NCBI GenBank assembly: GCA_947472885.1
Contig: CANJBX010000001.1
Location: 84,946-148,945, forward strand
Length of the DNA: 64,000 nucleotides
Source: Hyphomicrobiaceae bacterium
GTDB taxonomy: Bacteria; Pseudomonadota; Alphaproteobacteria; Rhizobiales; Xanthobacteraceae
Direction of reading: 5' to 3'
The first letter of the stretch is position 1. Each line of letters begins with the position of its first letter. A model generated the notes under the pieces. It was not told where the DNA came from, did not search any database, and was given only the letters and a program-made list of their open reading frames with translations. Positions 3,686 to 16,500 of the stretch are shown piece by piece. Made by a program: the position numbers and the translations under genes.

Positions 3686-4207
3686 ATGTACCGCCGCATC
3701 CTTCCGCTCGCCCTTTGCGTATTCGCAGGCACGGCGTTCGCCGAGGACATCCCGACGCGCAAGCCGGGCCTGTGGGAAGTGAAGATGTCGTTCGACGGCA
3801 AGGGCATGCCGGCGCAGACCATGCAGCAATGCGCCGACGCCGAAACCGACGTGGCGCTGCGTTCGCCGCCGGGCAGCGGCGCGGACATGTGCCCCAAGCC
3901 GGTGATGAAGCGTTCGGGCGACACCATGACGATGGACTCGACCTGCACCATCGAGGGCAAGAAGTCGCAGACCCACATGGTCATCACCGGCAGTTTTGAG
4001 TCCGCCTACACGATGAAAGTGTCGATCAAGAGCGACAGCGTGCCGGGCGGCGGCGAAATGTCGATGACGATGGATGCGAAATGGCTCGGCGCCTGCAGGC
4101 CGGACCAGCGGCCGGGCGATCTCATCATGCCGGGCGGCATGAAAATGAACATCAAGGACATGCAGAGGGTGCAGCAGCAGCGGTCGGGTGGTTTGCCGCA
4201 GCGGTAG
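3686..4207 (+). CDS. DUF3617-like periplasmic protein
   Basis: Signal peptide, then IPTRKPGLWEVKMSFDG...MQQCADAETD; typical DUF3617 start. Confidence 0.75.
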   Translation: MYRRILPLALCVFAGTAFAEDIPTRKPGLWEVKMSFDGKGMPAQTMQQCADAETDVALRSPPGSGADMCPKPVMKRSGDTMTMDSTCTIEGKKSQTHMVITGSFESAYTMKVSIKSDSVPGGGEMSMTMDAKWLGACRPDQRPGDLIMPGGMKMNIKDMQRVQQQRSGGLPQR

Positions 4208-4261
4208 GTGCTATGGATGAATCGGTCTTTGGATAGAATGAACCAGGCGGCATACGCGGGT

Positions 4262-4398
4262 GTAACCCTCTCCCCTTGAGGGAGAGGGTGGCGCGCGAAC
4301 GAAGTGAGCGGGCCGGGTGAGGGGTGTTTTCGATTAGGGCATTACCCCTCACCCCGCTCGCAAACGCTCGCGACCCTCTCCCTCAAGGGGAGAGGGTA
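4262..4398. repeat. Intergenic inverted repeat (copy F of hairpin family)
   Basis: gtaaccctctccccttgagggagagggtg ... accctctccctcaaggggagagggta; same subtype as copy E. Confidence 0.85.
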
Positions 4399-4421
4399 GG
4401 ACCACCCGCGTGGCGAGAATT

Positions 4422-5927
4422 TTAATTCCAGCTGATGCCGTGCTTGGCCAGAATGCGCTGCACTTCTTTGACCAGATCACCTTCCGCAACGCTCGTCTGC
4501 GCCTCGGCCTGCTTGGTGAGATAATCGTCGCGGCCTTTTTCGAGCTTGGCGAGGTCTGCGCCGACGATCAGGTCCTTGAGCGTGACTTCGCCCTTGGCCT
4601 TCTCGTCGCCGCCCTGGATGACGACGCAGGGTGAGTTGCGCTTGTCGGCGTACTTCAACTGGTTGCCGAAGTTCTTGGGATTGCCGAGATAGAGTTCGGC
4701 GCGGATTTTGGCGGCACGCAACTGCGCAACCATTTTCTGGTAGTCGGCAATACGCTCGCGGTCGAACACCGTGACGACGACCGGGCCGACTTCCGGCTTG
4801 CTGTCGAGCTTGCCGATCAGCGTGAGTGCGGCCTGCAAACGCGAGACGCCGATGGAGAAGCCGGTGGCGGGCACCGGCTCGCCGCGAAAGCGCGAAACCA
4901 ATCCATCGTAACGTCCGCCGCCGCCGACCGAGCCAAAGCGCACGGGCCGGCCTTTTTCGTCCTTGGTTTCGAGTAGGAGTTCTACTTCGTAGACCGGGCC
5001 GGTGTAGTATTCGAGGCCGCGGACGACGGAGGGGTCGATGCGAATGCGATCTTGGCCGTAGCCGGATTGCGCAGTGAGTTTTCCAATCTCCTCTAATTCG
5101 GAGACGCCTTCTCGCCCCATTTCTGAACCGGCTACTGCTCCCCAAAGAGTATGTAGAACTTCAGTCAATGAACCATTTGCGGGCCTAACAAGAAGCATTA
5201 CGCGATCAATTTGTTGAGGAGTTAGCATAGCTCCGGCCGTGAAATCGCCTTTGCGGATTTCGCCGCCATCCAGCCGTCCGCTCCCGAGTAGCTTGCGGAT
5301 CTCTTCAGGGGGAAACTTGTCTTGTTTGTCGATTGCCCGAAACGTCAATAGCTTTTGTTTTTGATCGACGACGCCCATTGCTTCCAGCACGCCATCAAGC
5401 ACCTTGCGATTGTTCACCTTCACAACGTACTGCCCGCGCGCGATCCCAAGCGCTTCCATCGTGTCGGCTGCCATCATGCACATCTCGGCATCGGCGGCAG
5501 GCGAGGCGCTACCAACCGTATCCGCATCGAACTGCATGAACTGCCGGAAGCGGCCGGGGCCGGGCTTCTCGTTACGAAACACCCAGCCGAAGCGATACGA
5601 ACGATAGGGGAGGACGAAATCTTCCTGCCCGATTTTGCCCGCCACGTAACGCGCGAGTGGCGCGGTGAGGTCGTAGCGCAGCGAGATCCACTGTTCGTCG
5701 TCGTCCTGAAACGAGAACACGCCTTCGTTCGGGCGGTCCTGATCGGGCAAAAACTTGCCGAGCGCGTCGGTATATTCCATCGCCGGCGTTTCCACCGGCT
5801 CGAAGCCGTACAGCTCGTAGACCGCGCGGATCGCATCGGTCATGCGCCGGGTGGCGGCGATTTCGGCCGGGCCGCGGTCTTCGAGGCCGCGCGGCAGCCG
5901 CGCCTTGAGCTTGTGGGGTTTGGCCAT
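4422..5927 (-). CDS. hisS: Histidyl-tRNA synthetase
   Basis: [29 protein letters not shown]...; class II motifs including [14 protein letters not shown] and GGGGRYDGL; start trimmed to 5927. Confidence 0.95.
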
Positions 5928-11306: not shown

Positions 11307-12296
11307 ATGACCGACCGGAAAAAATCATTCACCATCATTCGAGGTAGTGCTGCGGGCGGCGAAACGCCCGGCGCGCTGTCCGGTGCCGTGGTGGCGCTCG
11401 GAAATTTCGAGGGCGTGCATCGCGGGCATCGCGTGGTGATCGACCATGCGGTGAAGCTCGCGGCGAAATTGGGTCGTCCCGCGGTGGCGCTGACGTTCGA
11501 ACCGCACCCGCGCGCGTTCTTCCGTCCGAGCGAGCCGGTATTCCGTTTGTCCGACGAACGCACGAAGTTGCGGCTGCTTGCAGCGACCGCGCTCGACGGT
11601 GCCGTTGTCCTCAAGTTCGATGCGTCGCTTGCAGGATTGTCGGCGCAGGATTTTGTCAGCCGCATCCTATGCGGCTGGTTGTACATCTCGGGTGCGGTGA
11701 TCGGATTCGATTTTCATTTCGGACGCGACCGCGCCGGTTCGCCGATGTTCCTGACAGGCGAGGGCGCGGAGCGCGGCTTTGTTGTCGAGGTGGTACCGGA
11801 AGTGAAGGACGCCGCCCGGCGGTTTTCTTCGGGTGCGGTGCGCGCGGCGCTCACCACAGGTGATGTTGCAGATGCGGCGTCGATCCTCGGATTTCCGTGG
11901 TCGGTGTCGGGCGAGGTGATCCACGGCGAGAAGCGCGGCCGCGATCTTGGGTTTCCGACCGCCAACCTGCGGCTCGACCCGGGCTGCGGCCTGCGCCACG
12001 GCATCTATGCGATGCGGGTCGCGGTCGATGGCAAGTTTTATGGCGGCGTGGCGAGCTTTGGCCGGCGGCCAACGTTCGATAACGGCGCGCCGCTCCTCGA
12101 AATCTTCCTGTTCGACTTCAAGGGCGATCTCTACGGCAAGGTGCTGGATGCCGCCTTCATCGGCTGGATCAGGCCCGAACTGAAGTTCACCTCGGTTGAC
12201 GCTCTGGTCGTGCGGATGAACGAGGATGCCAGCGAGGCCAAGGCCATGCTGGCGGCCTCCGGGGGCGTTTTTCCGCCATTGGGTAACTTTGAGTAG
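11307..12296 (+). CDS. ribF: Bifunctional riboflavin kinase/FAD synthetase
   Basis: VVALGNFEGVHRGHRVVIDHA, LTFEPHPRAFF, HGEKRGRDLGFPTANL, GIYAMRV; start trimmed to ATG 11307. Confidence 0.95.
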   Translation: MTDRKKSFTIIRGSAAGGETPGALSGAVVALGNFEGVHRGHRVVIDHAVKLAAKLGRPAVALTFEPHPRAFFRPSEPVFRLSDERTKLRLLAATALDGAVVLKFDASLAGLSAQDFVSRILCGWLYISGAVIGFDFHFGRDRAGSPMFLTGEGAERGFVVEVVPEVKDAARRFSSGAVRAALTTGDVADAASILGFPWSVSGEVIHGEKRGRDLGFPTANLRLDPGCGLRHGIYAMRVAVDGKFYGGVASFGRRPTFDNGAPLLEIFLFDFKGDLYGKVLDAAFIGWIRPELKFTSVDALVVRMNEDASEAKAMLAASGGVFPPLGNFE

Positions 12297-12329
12297 GCAG
12301 AATCCTTCTTGATTTCCTCGATGTTGCCT

Positions 12330-12406
12330 TACCCAAATTGGGTATTATTATTCCCATATTGGGTATTGAAATTACCCAAATTGGGTATTATCATCCCCAA
12401 AATGGG
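12330..12406. promoter_or_regulatory. Array of four palindromic operators (CCCAAATTGGG / CCCATATTGGG / CCCAAATTGGG / CCCAAAATGGG)
   Basis: Palindromes centred at about 12337, 12358, 12380 and 12401 (spacing about 21, 22, 21 bp); the fourth contains the probable ATG (12402) of the downstream gene. Confidence 0.75.
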
Positions 12407-13013
12407 AAGGCAGACAGAAGATTACAAAGGGTTTGCTGCTGCGCTTTTTTCAAAAGTGCAGTTGCGTTTGTTGAACCTTTTAATCGGACACCCAAACCAG
12501 GCTTTCCATACTTCCGAGATCATAAAGCGCGTTCAATCCGGTACGGGTGCCGTACAGCGTGAATTGGTGAAACTCGCGGAAGCAGGCATCCTTACATCTG
12601 CGTCAGATGGAAACCGGAGAATTTATCAGGCGAATAAGCAGGCCCCAATTTTTAAAGAGCTTAGCGGGATTATTTTGAAGACTACCGGCTTGGTGGAGCC
12701 AATAAGAGATTCGCTAACCCGTTTTCAAAATCAAATACGCCTCGCATTTATTTATGGTTCGATCGCCAACGGAACTGACACTGCCAACAGCGATGTAGAT
12801 CTAATGATTGTTGGAGAAGAACTGTCTTACAGCGAGATTTTCGGTGCACTTGAAATCGCTGAAAAGGCCATTAGCCGCCCGATAAATCCGAACATCATGA
12901 CGCCGCCAGAGTGGAGTGAAGGACTTTCAAGCGGCAACTCTTTTGTCAGGAAAATTTTTGAAAACCCCAAACTCATTGTTTTAGGAACGGAACATGAGCT
13001 TAAAGGAACTTGA
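12402..13013 (+). CDS. Winged-helix DNA-binding domain fused to MNT-type nucleotidyltransferase
   Basis: wHTH-like SKVQLRLLNLLIGHPNQAFHTSEIIKRVQSGTGAVQRELVKLAEAGILTSASDGNRRIYQAN, then NTase motif YGSIANGTDTANSDVDLMIV (GSx10DxD). The supplied ORF start at 12309 runs through the operator array. Confidence 0.8.
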   Translation: MGRQTEDYKGFAAALFSKVQLRLLNLLIGHPNQAFHTSEIIKRVQSGTGAVQRELVKLAEAGILTSASDGNRRIYQANKQAPIFKELSGIILKTTGLVEPIRDSLTRFQNQIRLAFIYGSIANGTDTANSDVDLMIVGEELSYSEIFGALEIAEKAISRPINPNIMTPPEWSEGLSSGNSFVRKIFENPKLIVLGTEHELKGT

Positions 13014-13428
13014 TAATCTGGTCGGCTTGGGAACCCTGAAAAAAGAAGCTGCGGATCAAGGCGAATTTGATGGTCTTCTGGCGCTAGCCCGCGCAAGGCT
13101 CATTGATGCCGAGAACAAAACCCTTTCGGCCGAAAGTAGATTTGATCTCGCTTACGGCGCGGCTCATGCGCTCTCGCTGGCGGCTATGAGGTGGAATGGG
13201 TATCGCCCGCACAATGCAAGATATGCGGTTTTCTTATCCCTGCAGCATACTTTGGGGCTTGGGCCTGAGGTTTATCGTCCTTTGGATAAAGCTCATAACC
13301 TTCGCAATCTGGCTGACTACGCCGGTTCGTTTCGGGCCGACGCTCAATTGCAAACTGACCTGATAAACGCCACCAAGATTGTGCAAGTCGCAGTTGAAAC
13401 GCTGGGTCCAGTTGAACAAAGGAAATAG
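12994..13428 (+). CDS. HEPN-like protein paired with the nucleotidyltransferase
   Basis: 144 aa predicted all-helical; RFDLAYGAAHALSLAAMRWNGYRP...HNLRNLADYAG; overlaps the MNT gene by 20 bp. Confidence 0.65.
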   Translation: MSLKELDNLVGLGTLKKEAADQGEFDGLLALARARLIDAENKTLSAESRFDLAYGAAHALSLAAMRWNGYRPHNARYAVFLSLQHTLGLGPEVYRPLDKAHNLRNLADYAGSFRADAQLQTDLINATKIVQVAVETLGPVEQRK

Positions 13429-13512
13429 CGTTTTCCCGGAGGCCCTTTAGCTGACGTTTATTGTCTTTATCGTGCCTTTGCGTAGCCCTGCGCCCCTGCT
13501 AAACAGCCCGCC

Positions 13513-16500
13513 ATGACCGACAAATCATCCGATAAATCTGCCGATTCAGCCGCCAACGACCCGGACTATTCCAGGACGCTGTTTTTGCCGCAGACCGAGT
13601 TTCCGATGCGGGCAGGCTTGCCCCAGAAGGAGCCGGAGCTGCTGGCGCTGTGGCGCAAGAACGACCTCTACGGCAAGCTGCGCGCAGCCTCAAAAGGCCG
13701 GACCAAGTTCGTCCTGCACGACGGCCCGCCCTATGCCAATGGCAACATCCATATCGGCCACGCGCTCAACAAGATCCTCAAGGATGTGGTGACGCGCAGC
13801 CAGCAGATGCTGGGCTACGACTCGAATTACGTTCCGGGCTGGGACTGTCACGGCCTGCCGATCGAATGGAAGATCGAGGAAGAAAACTACCGTTCCAAGA
13901 ACAAGCCGAAGCCGAACTTCTCCGACCCCGACGCCATGATCGCATTCCGCAAGGAATGCCGCGCCTATGCCGCGCACTGGATCGACGTGCAGCGCGAGGA
14001 ATTCAAGCGGCTCGGTGTCGAAGGCGACTGGGACCATCCCTACACCACGATGGCGTTCCCCGCCGAAGCGCAGATCGCGCGCGAGATCATGAAGTTCGCG
14101 CAGAACGGCACGCTCTATCGCGGCTCCAAGCCTGTGATGTGGTCGGTCGTCGAGAAGACCGCGCTCGCGGAAGCCGAGGTCGAATACGAGGATTACACGT
14201 CCGATACGGTGTGGGTGAAATTCCCGGTCGTCGGTGGCCCGAAGGAACTGGCAGGCGCATCGGTGGTGATCTGGACCACGACGCCGTGGACCTTGCCGGG
14301 CAACCGCGCGATCTCGTTCTCGTCGAAGATTTCCTACGGCCTCTATGAAGTCAAAGACACGCCCATGGGTAACTGGGCGAATGTCGGCGACAGGTTCATC
14401 CTCGCCGATCCGCTCGCGCTCGATGTGATGAAGCAGGCCAAGGTGCTGGCCTATGAGCGCCGCTCAGCCGTCAGCGGGGAGACATTGGAGAAACTCGTCT
14501 GCGCGCATCCGCTGCGCGAGACAATCGAGGGTTACGGCTTTGGCGTGCCGCTGCTGAACGGCGATCATGTCACCGACGACACCGGCACCGGCTTCGTGCA
14601 CACCGCGCCCGGTCATGGCCGCGACGACTTCGAAATTTGGACTGCAAATTTTCCAAGAATATTGGAAAACATGTCTGCAACAGGAACGCAGTCTTCGGTA
14701 CATTTCAGGCTGACCAAGGGAATTCCATACACGGTCGATGCGGACGGCTGTTTAACTAAGGATGCGCCGGGCTTTGAAGGTCGCCGTGTTCTTACTGACA
14801 AGGGTGAGAAGGGTGACGCTAACGAGGCGGTGATAAAGGCGTTGGTTGAAGCCAAAAACATCATTGCGCGTAGTCGCCTCAAACATCAGTACCCGCATTC
14901 TTGGCGGTCAAAAAAGCCTGTTATCTTTCGCAATACGCCGCAATGGTTCATTGCGATGGATCAGGAAATCGAAGGCGGGAGAGGTGGCGATGACACGCTG
15001 CGCGCCCGCGCGCTACAGGCCATTGAGGTAACGCGCTGGGTGCCTGAGCAGTGCCAGAACCGCATCACCGGCATGATTGCTGGACGTCCAGACTGGGTGA
15101 TCTCTCGACAAAGGGCTTGGGGTGTTCCCATAGCGATTTTTGTAAACACCGTTACTGGACAAATTCTACAGAATGAGGCGGTCAATCAAAGAATCATTGA
15201 CGCTTTCCAAGCTGAAGGTGCGGACGCTTGGTTCGCCATTGGTGCACGAGAGCGTTTCCTCGGCACGGATTTTATTGATGTTGGAGTTTGGCAAAAGGTC
15301 GACGACGTCATCGACGTCTGGTTCGATTCAGGTTCCACGCACGCTTTCGTACTCGACGATCCGGAACATTTCCCCTCGCTCGCCGGCATCAAGCGCAAGG
15401 TGGCGGGCGGCGAAGACACCGTGATGTATCTCGAAGGTTCGGACCAGCATCGCGGCTGGTTCCACTCGTCGCTGCTGGAAAGCTGCGGCACGCGCGGCCG
15501 CGCGCCTTACGATGTCGTACTGACCCACGGCTTCGTGCTGGACGAGAACGGCCGCAAGATGTCGAAGTCGCTCGGCAACGTCGTAGCTCCTCAGGACGTC
15601 ATCAAGAATTCCGGCGCGGACATCCTGCGCATGTGGGTGTGCGCATCGGATTATGCCGACGACCTGCGCATCGGGCCGGAAATTCTGAAAACCACGGCGG
15701 ATACCTATCGCAAGCTGCGCAACACCATCCGCTGGATGCTGGGTTCGCTGGCGCATTTCAGGGACGAGGATCGCATCAAGCCGGAGCAGATGCCGGAACT
15801 GGAGCGTCTGATGCTCCACCGTCTGGTCGAACTCGATGCCGTGGTGCGGCAGGCCTATGCCGATTTCGATTACAAGCGCATTTTCGCGACGCTCTCGACG
15901 TTCATGACGTCAGACCTGTCGGCGTTCTATTTCGACATCCGCAAGGACGCGCTCTACTGCGATCCTTATTCCTCGACGACGCGCAAGGCGTCCCTGACGG
16001 TCATCGACCATCTGTTCCGCTGCACGGTGACGTGGCTGGCGCCGATGCTGCCATTTACGTGCGAGGAGTCGTGGCTCGCGCGCGATCCCAACGCCGGGTC
16101 GGTTCATCTTGAACCGTTCCCCGAAGTGCCGGCGGCATGGCGCAACGATGCGCTGGCCGAGAAGTGGCGCAAGGTGCGCAGCGTGCGCCGCGTCGTCACC
16201 GGGGCGCTCGAACTCGACCGCGCCAACAAGAAGATCGGCTCGTCGCTCGAGGCCGCGCCGCAGGTGTTCGTGTCGGACAAGGATCTGTTCGGCGCGCTGG
16301 TCGATGTCGATCTTGCGGAGACTTGCATCACTTCCGCAGCGATTTTGGTGGAGGGCGAGGGACCTGCTGAGGCATTCCGTCTTGCCGATACGCCCGGCGT
16401 TGCGGTGGTGCCGAGCCGCGCCGAAGGAACCAAGTGCGCGCGCTCGTGGAAAATCTCACCGGCGGTTGGCCAGGACCCGCAATATCCCGACGTCACGCCG

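Follow-up and report, generated by a model that had tools for sequence, protein, structure and literature searches.

Described HEPN/MNT pairs and the inserted locus

In the Type VII HepT/MntA system (Class I; SO_3166/SO_3165) the HEPN protein carries an active RX4HXY motif and the MNT protein carries GSX10DXD. SO_3165 acts on its own promoter, which it binds near two palindromes and represses (PMC4621449). Modules of Class II HEPN/MNT are defined by PF05168, and as of PMC7641770 they had no biochemistry. AbiE (type IV; AbiEi/Rv2827c) has a wHTH-type antitoxin, AbiEi, that autorepresses through 2-4 inverted repeats over the promoter (PMC7319586). The AF0298-like HEPN-T proteins have lost the histidine of Rx4-6H and have an alternative histidine between helices 2 and 3 (PMC3710099). 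PDC-M05 is an NTase plus HEPN candidate defence pair that is enriched in archaea, and its antiviral role is unconfirmed (PMC12988326). PDC-M05A is among the genes upregulated in phage-infected Burkholderia cenocepacia (PMC12584637).

The window is a stretch of 64,000 nucleotides from a Hyphomicrobiaceae genome, and the gene pair at 12330-13428 within it is a member of PDC-M05 (Table 1). The first protein matches the PADLOC profile PDC-M05A (E 9.1e-74, residues 11-201). The second, adjoining and in the same order, matches PDC-M05B (E 8e-51, residues 1-138). The original prediction, made from the DNA alone, described a winged-helix-like N-terminus followed by an MNT motif, with a 144-aa partner overlapping by 20 bp. 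All of this was found as described, the shared 20 bp being 12994-13013, where the NTase gene ends and the HEPN gene starts.

Table 1. Features of the gene pair and its upstream DNA, in window coordinates
Feature	Position	Strand	Details
wHTH-nucleotidyltransferase gene (PDC-M05A)	12402..13013	+	203 aa; predicted antitoxin and repressor
HEPN-fold gene (PDC-M05B)	12994..13428	+	144 aa; predicted toxin
N-terminal ArsR/MarR-like winged helix	12423..12641	+	residues about 8-80; recognition helix GTGAVQREL
Minimal nucleotidyltransferase domain	12693..12986	+	residues about 98-195; third carboxylate position N162
Palindrome 1	12330..12344	.	TACCCAAATTGGGTA; upstream copy in a 43-bp tandem duplication with palindrome 3
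Palindrome 2	12351..12365	.	TTCCCATATTGGGTA
Palindrome 3	12373..12387	.	TACCCAAATTGGGTA; predicted core operator in the -35/-10 spacer; place kept in 79 relatives
Palindrome 4	12394..12408	.	TCCCCAAAATGGGAA; predicted core operator over the predicted TSS and start codon; ATG 12402-12404 inside; conserved position
Predicted -35 element TTGAAA	12366..12371	+	promoter scan; family consensus TTGA
Predicted -10 element TATCAT	12389..12394	+	17-bp spacer; 7 nt from its end to the ATG; family consensus TATcAT
Weaker second promoter-like pair TTGCCT-16-TATTAT	12324..12351	+	duplicate unit

The HEPN, wHTH and NTase assignments are borne out by profile searches and by fold comparison of AlphaFold models, which recover a wHTH/MNT fold for the one protein and a HEPN fold for the other. 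The first protein matches Polbeta/NTP_transf_2 in Pfam (PF18765/PF01909) and, more weakly, wHTH families. Its family profile matches MNT antitoxins and an ArsR structure, and in Foldseek its model (pLDDT 87, pTM 0.62) finds MNT antitoxins and the AF1382/ArsR/MarR winged helices. The 144-aa protein (P0002) has no Pfam match of its own, and PF05168 is matched by 2 of 12 HEPN relatives (best E 8e-4). Against the PDB the HEPN family profile finds the HEPN structures 9xbd and 2hsb, the best match being AF0298 (2hsb, E 0.008). The HEPN model has a pLDDT of 90, and its top PDB matches in Foldseek are HEPN proteins, including HepT, at weak E (0.02 and up) and a TM of about 0.5. The alignments behind the models left out proteins from plasmid and phage records.

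The pair is inserted between ribF and ileS (12296-13513). The insert has a GC content of about 0.46 against 0.60-0.65 in its flanks, and ribF adjoins ileS without it in three relatives (L162, L164, L168). The pair is absent from the other genomes of the same family that were sampled, and homologues are found on plasmids and near integrases. By these signs the module is mobile and horizontally acquired. Scans of genome and viral contigs with the single protein gave no match; an alignment used as the query instead gave 80 loci. Several gammaproteobacterial genomes hold two copies of the NTase gene (G667, G757, G852, G889, G950, G979). On the Legionella plasmids L016-L018 an aminoglycoside adenylyltransferase-like gene follows the pair at about 3960-4800 and partly overlaps it; in L018 that gene is in pieces. 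We argue that the locus between ribF and ileS is probably a horizontally acquired, self-regulating HEPN-MNT module that is toxin-antitoxin-like, of PDC-M05 type and near Class II.

The promoter and its palindromes

Four CCC-N5-GGG palindromes (11-mers) lie at 12332, 12353, 12375 and 12396, which gives spacings of 21, 22 and 21 bp. The original prediction had all four preceding the gene. All four are present, but the last contains the ATG at 12402, and the array spans the promoter. Chance was rejected as an explanation, as shuffles, control windows, a motif-free spacing scan and genome-wide uniqueness are all contrary to it. The window has 10 near-matches to the site against a mean of 2.6 in dinucleotide shuffles, and no shuffle reached 10. 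The strict 15-bp site has 4 copies in the organism's 3.88-Mb genome (128 contigs), all of them in the array, against 1 match for the control; a second pair of sites was sought in the same contigs and none was found outside the array. The two halves of the array (12329-12363 and 12372-12406) are 89% identical over 35 nt, which suggests that a unit of two sites was duplicated in tandem to give the four copies. The array as a whole would then look like a duplicated operator-promoter unit.

Relatives were gathered by protein similarity alone, blind to upstream DNA. A palindrome pair (CCC-N5-GGG, at most 1 mismatch per site) is present in 80 of the 86 close relatives, which are loci with an identity of at least 42%, and the spacing is exactly 21 bp in 79. 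Control windows drawn at random from these loci have a pair in 14/1517. The motif-free scan looked for any two alike palindromes at spacings of 10 to 40 bp in 138 loci; a spacing of 21 bp is passed by 87 loci and any other by 0-2. Two sites are the norm (96/138), and four sites in a row occur only in the window and in L028 among the 138. It had been asked whether the array always accompanies the pair in homologues. The answer is that a pair of palindromes 21 bp apart nearly always does among close relatives, but four copies are rare. The original prediction would have fallen had homologues kept neither the gene pair nor the array, and both turn out to be conserved. An Afipia locus (L025) has two palindrome pairs that are 36 bp apart, and a Rhizobium leguminosarum plasmid (L020, 2880-2985) has two separate TCCA-type pairs with 21 bp within each. 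This apparent operator architecture, conserved among PDC-M05 relatives, is new here.

The window reads TTGAAA-17-TATCAT-7-ATG, a sigma70-like promoter within the array, and an independent promoter scan agrees. When the family is aligned on the second palindrome of the pair the pattern is TTGA, 17 bp that contain palindrome 1, TATcAT, 7 nt, and then an ATG at positions 7-9 of palindrome 2. Strict pairs in the wider set have an in-frame start codon at this fixed place in palindrome 2 in 83 of 103 cases, and it is ATG in 78. Roughly one relative in five has its translation start at another place. Several loci (L016-L018, L138, L143, L146, L147, L156) keep the 21-bp palindromes with no in-frame start codon at the conserved place, which implies that translation begins further down in those clades. 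If transcription begins at the ATG there is no room for an upstream Shine-Dalgarno sequence, and the simplest interpretation is a leaderless mRNA. We predict that the wHTH-NTase mRNA is leaderless and starts at its own ATG.

One can imagine that the array is an RNA element, with leader or attenuator hairpins, and not a protein operator. The 91-nt array does fold well (z -5.2), as any run of palindromes must. However, with the promoter within the array and transcription predicted to start at the ATG, no leader RNA would contain the core palindromes. An RNA leader was rejected on this ground. An Rfam search of the array gave no match. The fixed 21 bp and the half-sites that vary by clade fit protein dimers on one face of the DNA, and we consider an RNA element extremely unlikely. 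The palindromes overlap the operon's own promoter, as in an autorepressed operon. Self-regulation through the array, as originally proposed, gains support from this family-wide interleaving of 21-bp-phased palindromes with a sigma70 promoter. We argue that the promoter is most likely self-repressed through these palindromes.

Half-sites and the winged helix

The predicted binder of the palindromes is the fused wHTH. Divergent clades keep the 21 bp and have an altered half-site, mostly together with an altered recognition helix. A TTCAT half-site goes with helix GVATIKRE (L141, L151, L152, L154), TAGCC/T with AGTLHRE or PGTLHRE (L017, L111, L130), and TGCCA with GSASLQRE (L114, L115), all at 21 bp. 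L020 has TCCA, also at 21 bp. L021, a Rhodococcus plasmid, has TTCC, and its ATG is again inside palindrome 2. Across 138 loci CCC-type sites and a helix of the form GxG[ASTV][VILAS] occur together in 112, neither occurs in 23, and there are 3 exceptions, one of which is a contig edge.

It must be noted that the half-site classes are clustered on the NTase-domain tree, with 1 independent contrast on well-supported branches and 3 on all branches, so the match of helix to half-site is not statistically independent, and the tree test for independent changes had low power. The match is suggestive, and what it points to is the fused wHTH as the binder. It also favours self-regulation as first proposed, though few of the changes are independent. 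That scarcity, together with the fact that binding by the wHTH here is a prediction, leaves some room for another host regulator that binds the sites in its place. However, the geometry is the same across many phyla, and it is kept on plasmids and in horizontally transferred copies. The operator is absent elsewhere in the genome, and the half-site changes with the wHTH helix. We regard a separate host regulator as very unlikely.

A self-repressing MNT protein has a precedent in SO_3165, but no DNA-binding domain is predicted in that protein and its two palindromes differ from each other (PMC4621449), whereas here the wHTH is fused and the palindromes are alike. The arrangement over the promoter recalls AbiE. 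There the toxin is the NTase (DUF1814), which is a protein of its own, while here the NTase (PF18765/PF01909) is fused to the wHTH and the HEPN protein is the partner. The AbiE repeats, at 23 bp, are a further difference.

The HEPN partner and the function of the pair

The original prediction saw no Rx4-6H in the HEPN protein and RNLADY instead. This is confirmed, and it is no local oddity: RNxxxY is common to 75/75 partners, and none of the 75 has a histidine at the canonical place, which R104-x4-Y109 occupies. Y54, R71, R104, N105 and Y109 are invariant in all 75; His85 is present in 53 and His101 in 62. An automatic count in the C-terminal half found an Rx4-6H in 67 proteins. We rejected it, as it is the Arg-x5-His of WRxLDxAH, which lies before RN and has an unconserved arginine. 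In the HEPN model His85 lies between helices 2 and 3, the place of the alternative histidine in the AF0298-like family. AF0298 (2hsb), the best PDB profile match, aligns at R..DY, and the invariant RNxxxY here resembles the AF0298-like HEPN-T and Class II modules. The sequence similarity to AF0298 is very low.

In the first protein GSIANGTDTANSDVDL (GSx10DxD) lies at residues 119-134, and GS119-120 and D131/D133 are invariant in 80/80 NTase proteins. Residue 162 (RxINP) we take to be the third-carboxylate place of the Pol-beta fold, judging by how L020 (RDVDLN) aligns there and by what is known about the fold. It is Asn in 69 of the 80, Ser in 5, His in 4 and Asp in 1. A third carboxylate that is mostly Asn makes AMPylation uncertain, and on these residues the activity may have been lost.

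These motifs also place the pair among the described systems. Gene order, overlap and folds are shared with Type VII, and so is GSX10DXD (80/80 here). The active RX4HXY of the Type VII HEPN is not found here. Class II lacks RX4HXY too and has a conserved tyrosine, a GSX10DXD MNT and an operon (PMC7641770), all as here. However, our HEPN protein does not reach the PF05168 that defines the class. The text consulted there mentions no wHTH on the Class II MNT, whereas the MNT here has one, and its third carboxylate is mostly Asn. The gene pair is close to Class II, not formally within it.

The distribution of the two genes gives another line of reasoning. In one sample of 398 genomes there are 12 HEPN matches, all beside an NTase gene, and the NTase is found in 15. 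Of 138 NTase loci, 104 have an intact HEPN gene, 22 a partial or frameshifted one and 12 none; these loci were chosen by NTase search, and the broken or missing genes may in part reflect MAG or assembly errors or contig ends. For a toxin-antitoxin pair one would predict just this, that the HEPN is lost while the repressor/antitoxin stays. At several loci (L012, L037, L042, L057, L073, L100, L107) the NTase is intact and a truncated HEPN or a fragment lies downstream. Of those with upstream sequence (all but L037), most keep the palindromes.

Even if the regulatory half of our reading is right, the pair need not be a toxin and antitoxin. The HEPN could be the substrate-binding subunit of a two-chain NTase that modifies a small molecule, an RNA or a phage component, and self-regulation would then avoid waste. 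The HEPN lacks the RNase motif, and HEPN domains are the substrate-binding parts of kanamycin-type nucleotidyltransferases (PMC3710099, PMC2701414). The adenylyltransferase-like genes after the Legionella plasmid pairs are in line with this. However, the NTase gene often outlives the HEPN with its operators kept, which is not expected of a two-subunit enzyme. The HEPN is never found without the NTase, and the third carboxylate is lost. We consider the two-chain enzyme unlikely.

We favour the toxin-antitoxin-like reading, in which the gene pair would behave like an autorepressed toxin-antitoxin pair. In this scenario the wHTH-NTase protein would be made first, from a leaderless mRNA that begins at its own ATG. 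Its dimers would occupy two palindromes separated by 21 bp, or two helical turns, of which the first lies in the -35/-10 spacer and the second covers the predicted start site with the start codon. Bound there, they would exclude RNA polymerase. The duplicated upstream pair in the window would offer two further sites. The NTase domain would bind the HEPN partner and may nucleotidylate it, possibly at the invariant Tyr109, making it harmless. If the wHTH-NTase protein falls or is displaced, for example in infection, the promoter would be derepressed and the HEPN protein freed. It would then act as an atypical RNase or an RNA-binding inhibitor. Toxicity, neutralisation and any role against phage are presumed parts of this scenario.

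The pair was already known, being catalogued as PDC-M05; what is new is the conserved, interleaved promoter and operator with a predicted leaderless start. In the open-access papers searched we found no description of a PDC-M05 operator, leaderless start or wHTH self-regulation, and preprints or other sources may differ. One bolder extension is that the PDC-M05 promoter is an infection sensor. Removal or titration of the repressor would yield a leaderless mRNA, translatable when canonical initiation fails, and so free a HEPN toxin that lacks Rx4-6H. We think this quite unlikely as it stands. PDC-M05, described as among the commoner archaeal defence candidates, resembles the Class II modules. 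Its predicted HEPN-MNT antitoxin would have its own DNA-binding domain, unlike the characterised MntA. The conserved promoter gives a handle on the family, since one short DNA fragment is enough to approach the operator, the likely repressor, the predicted start of the transcript and the way in which half-site and helix change together.
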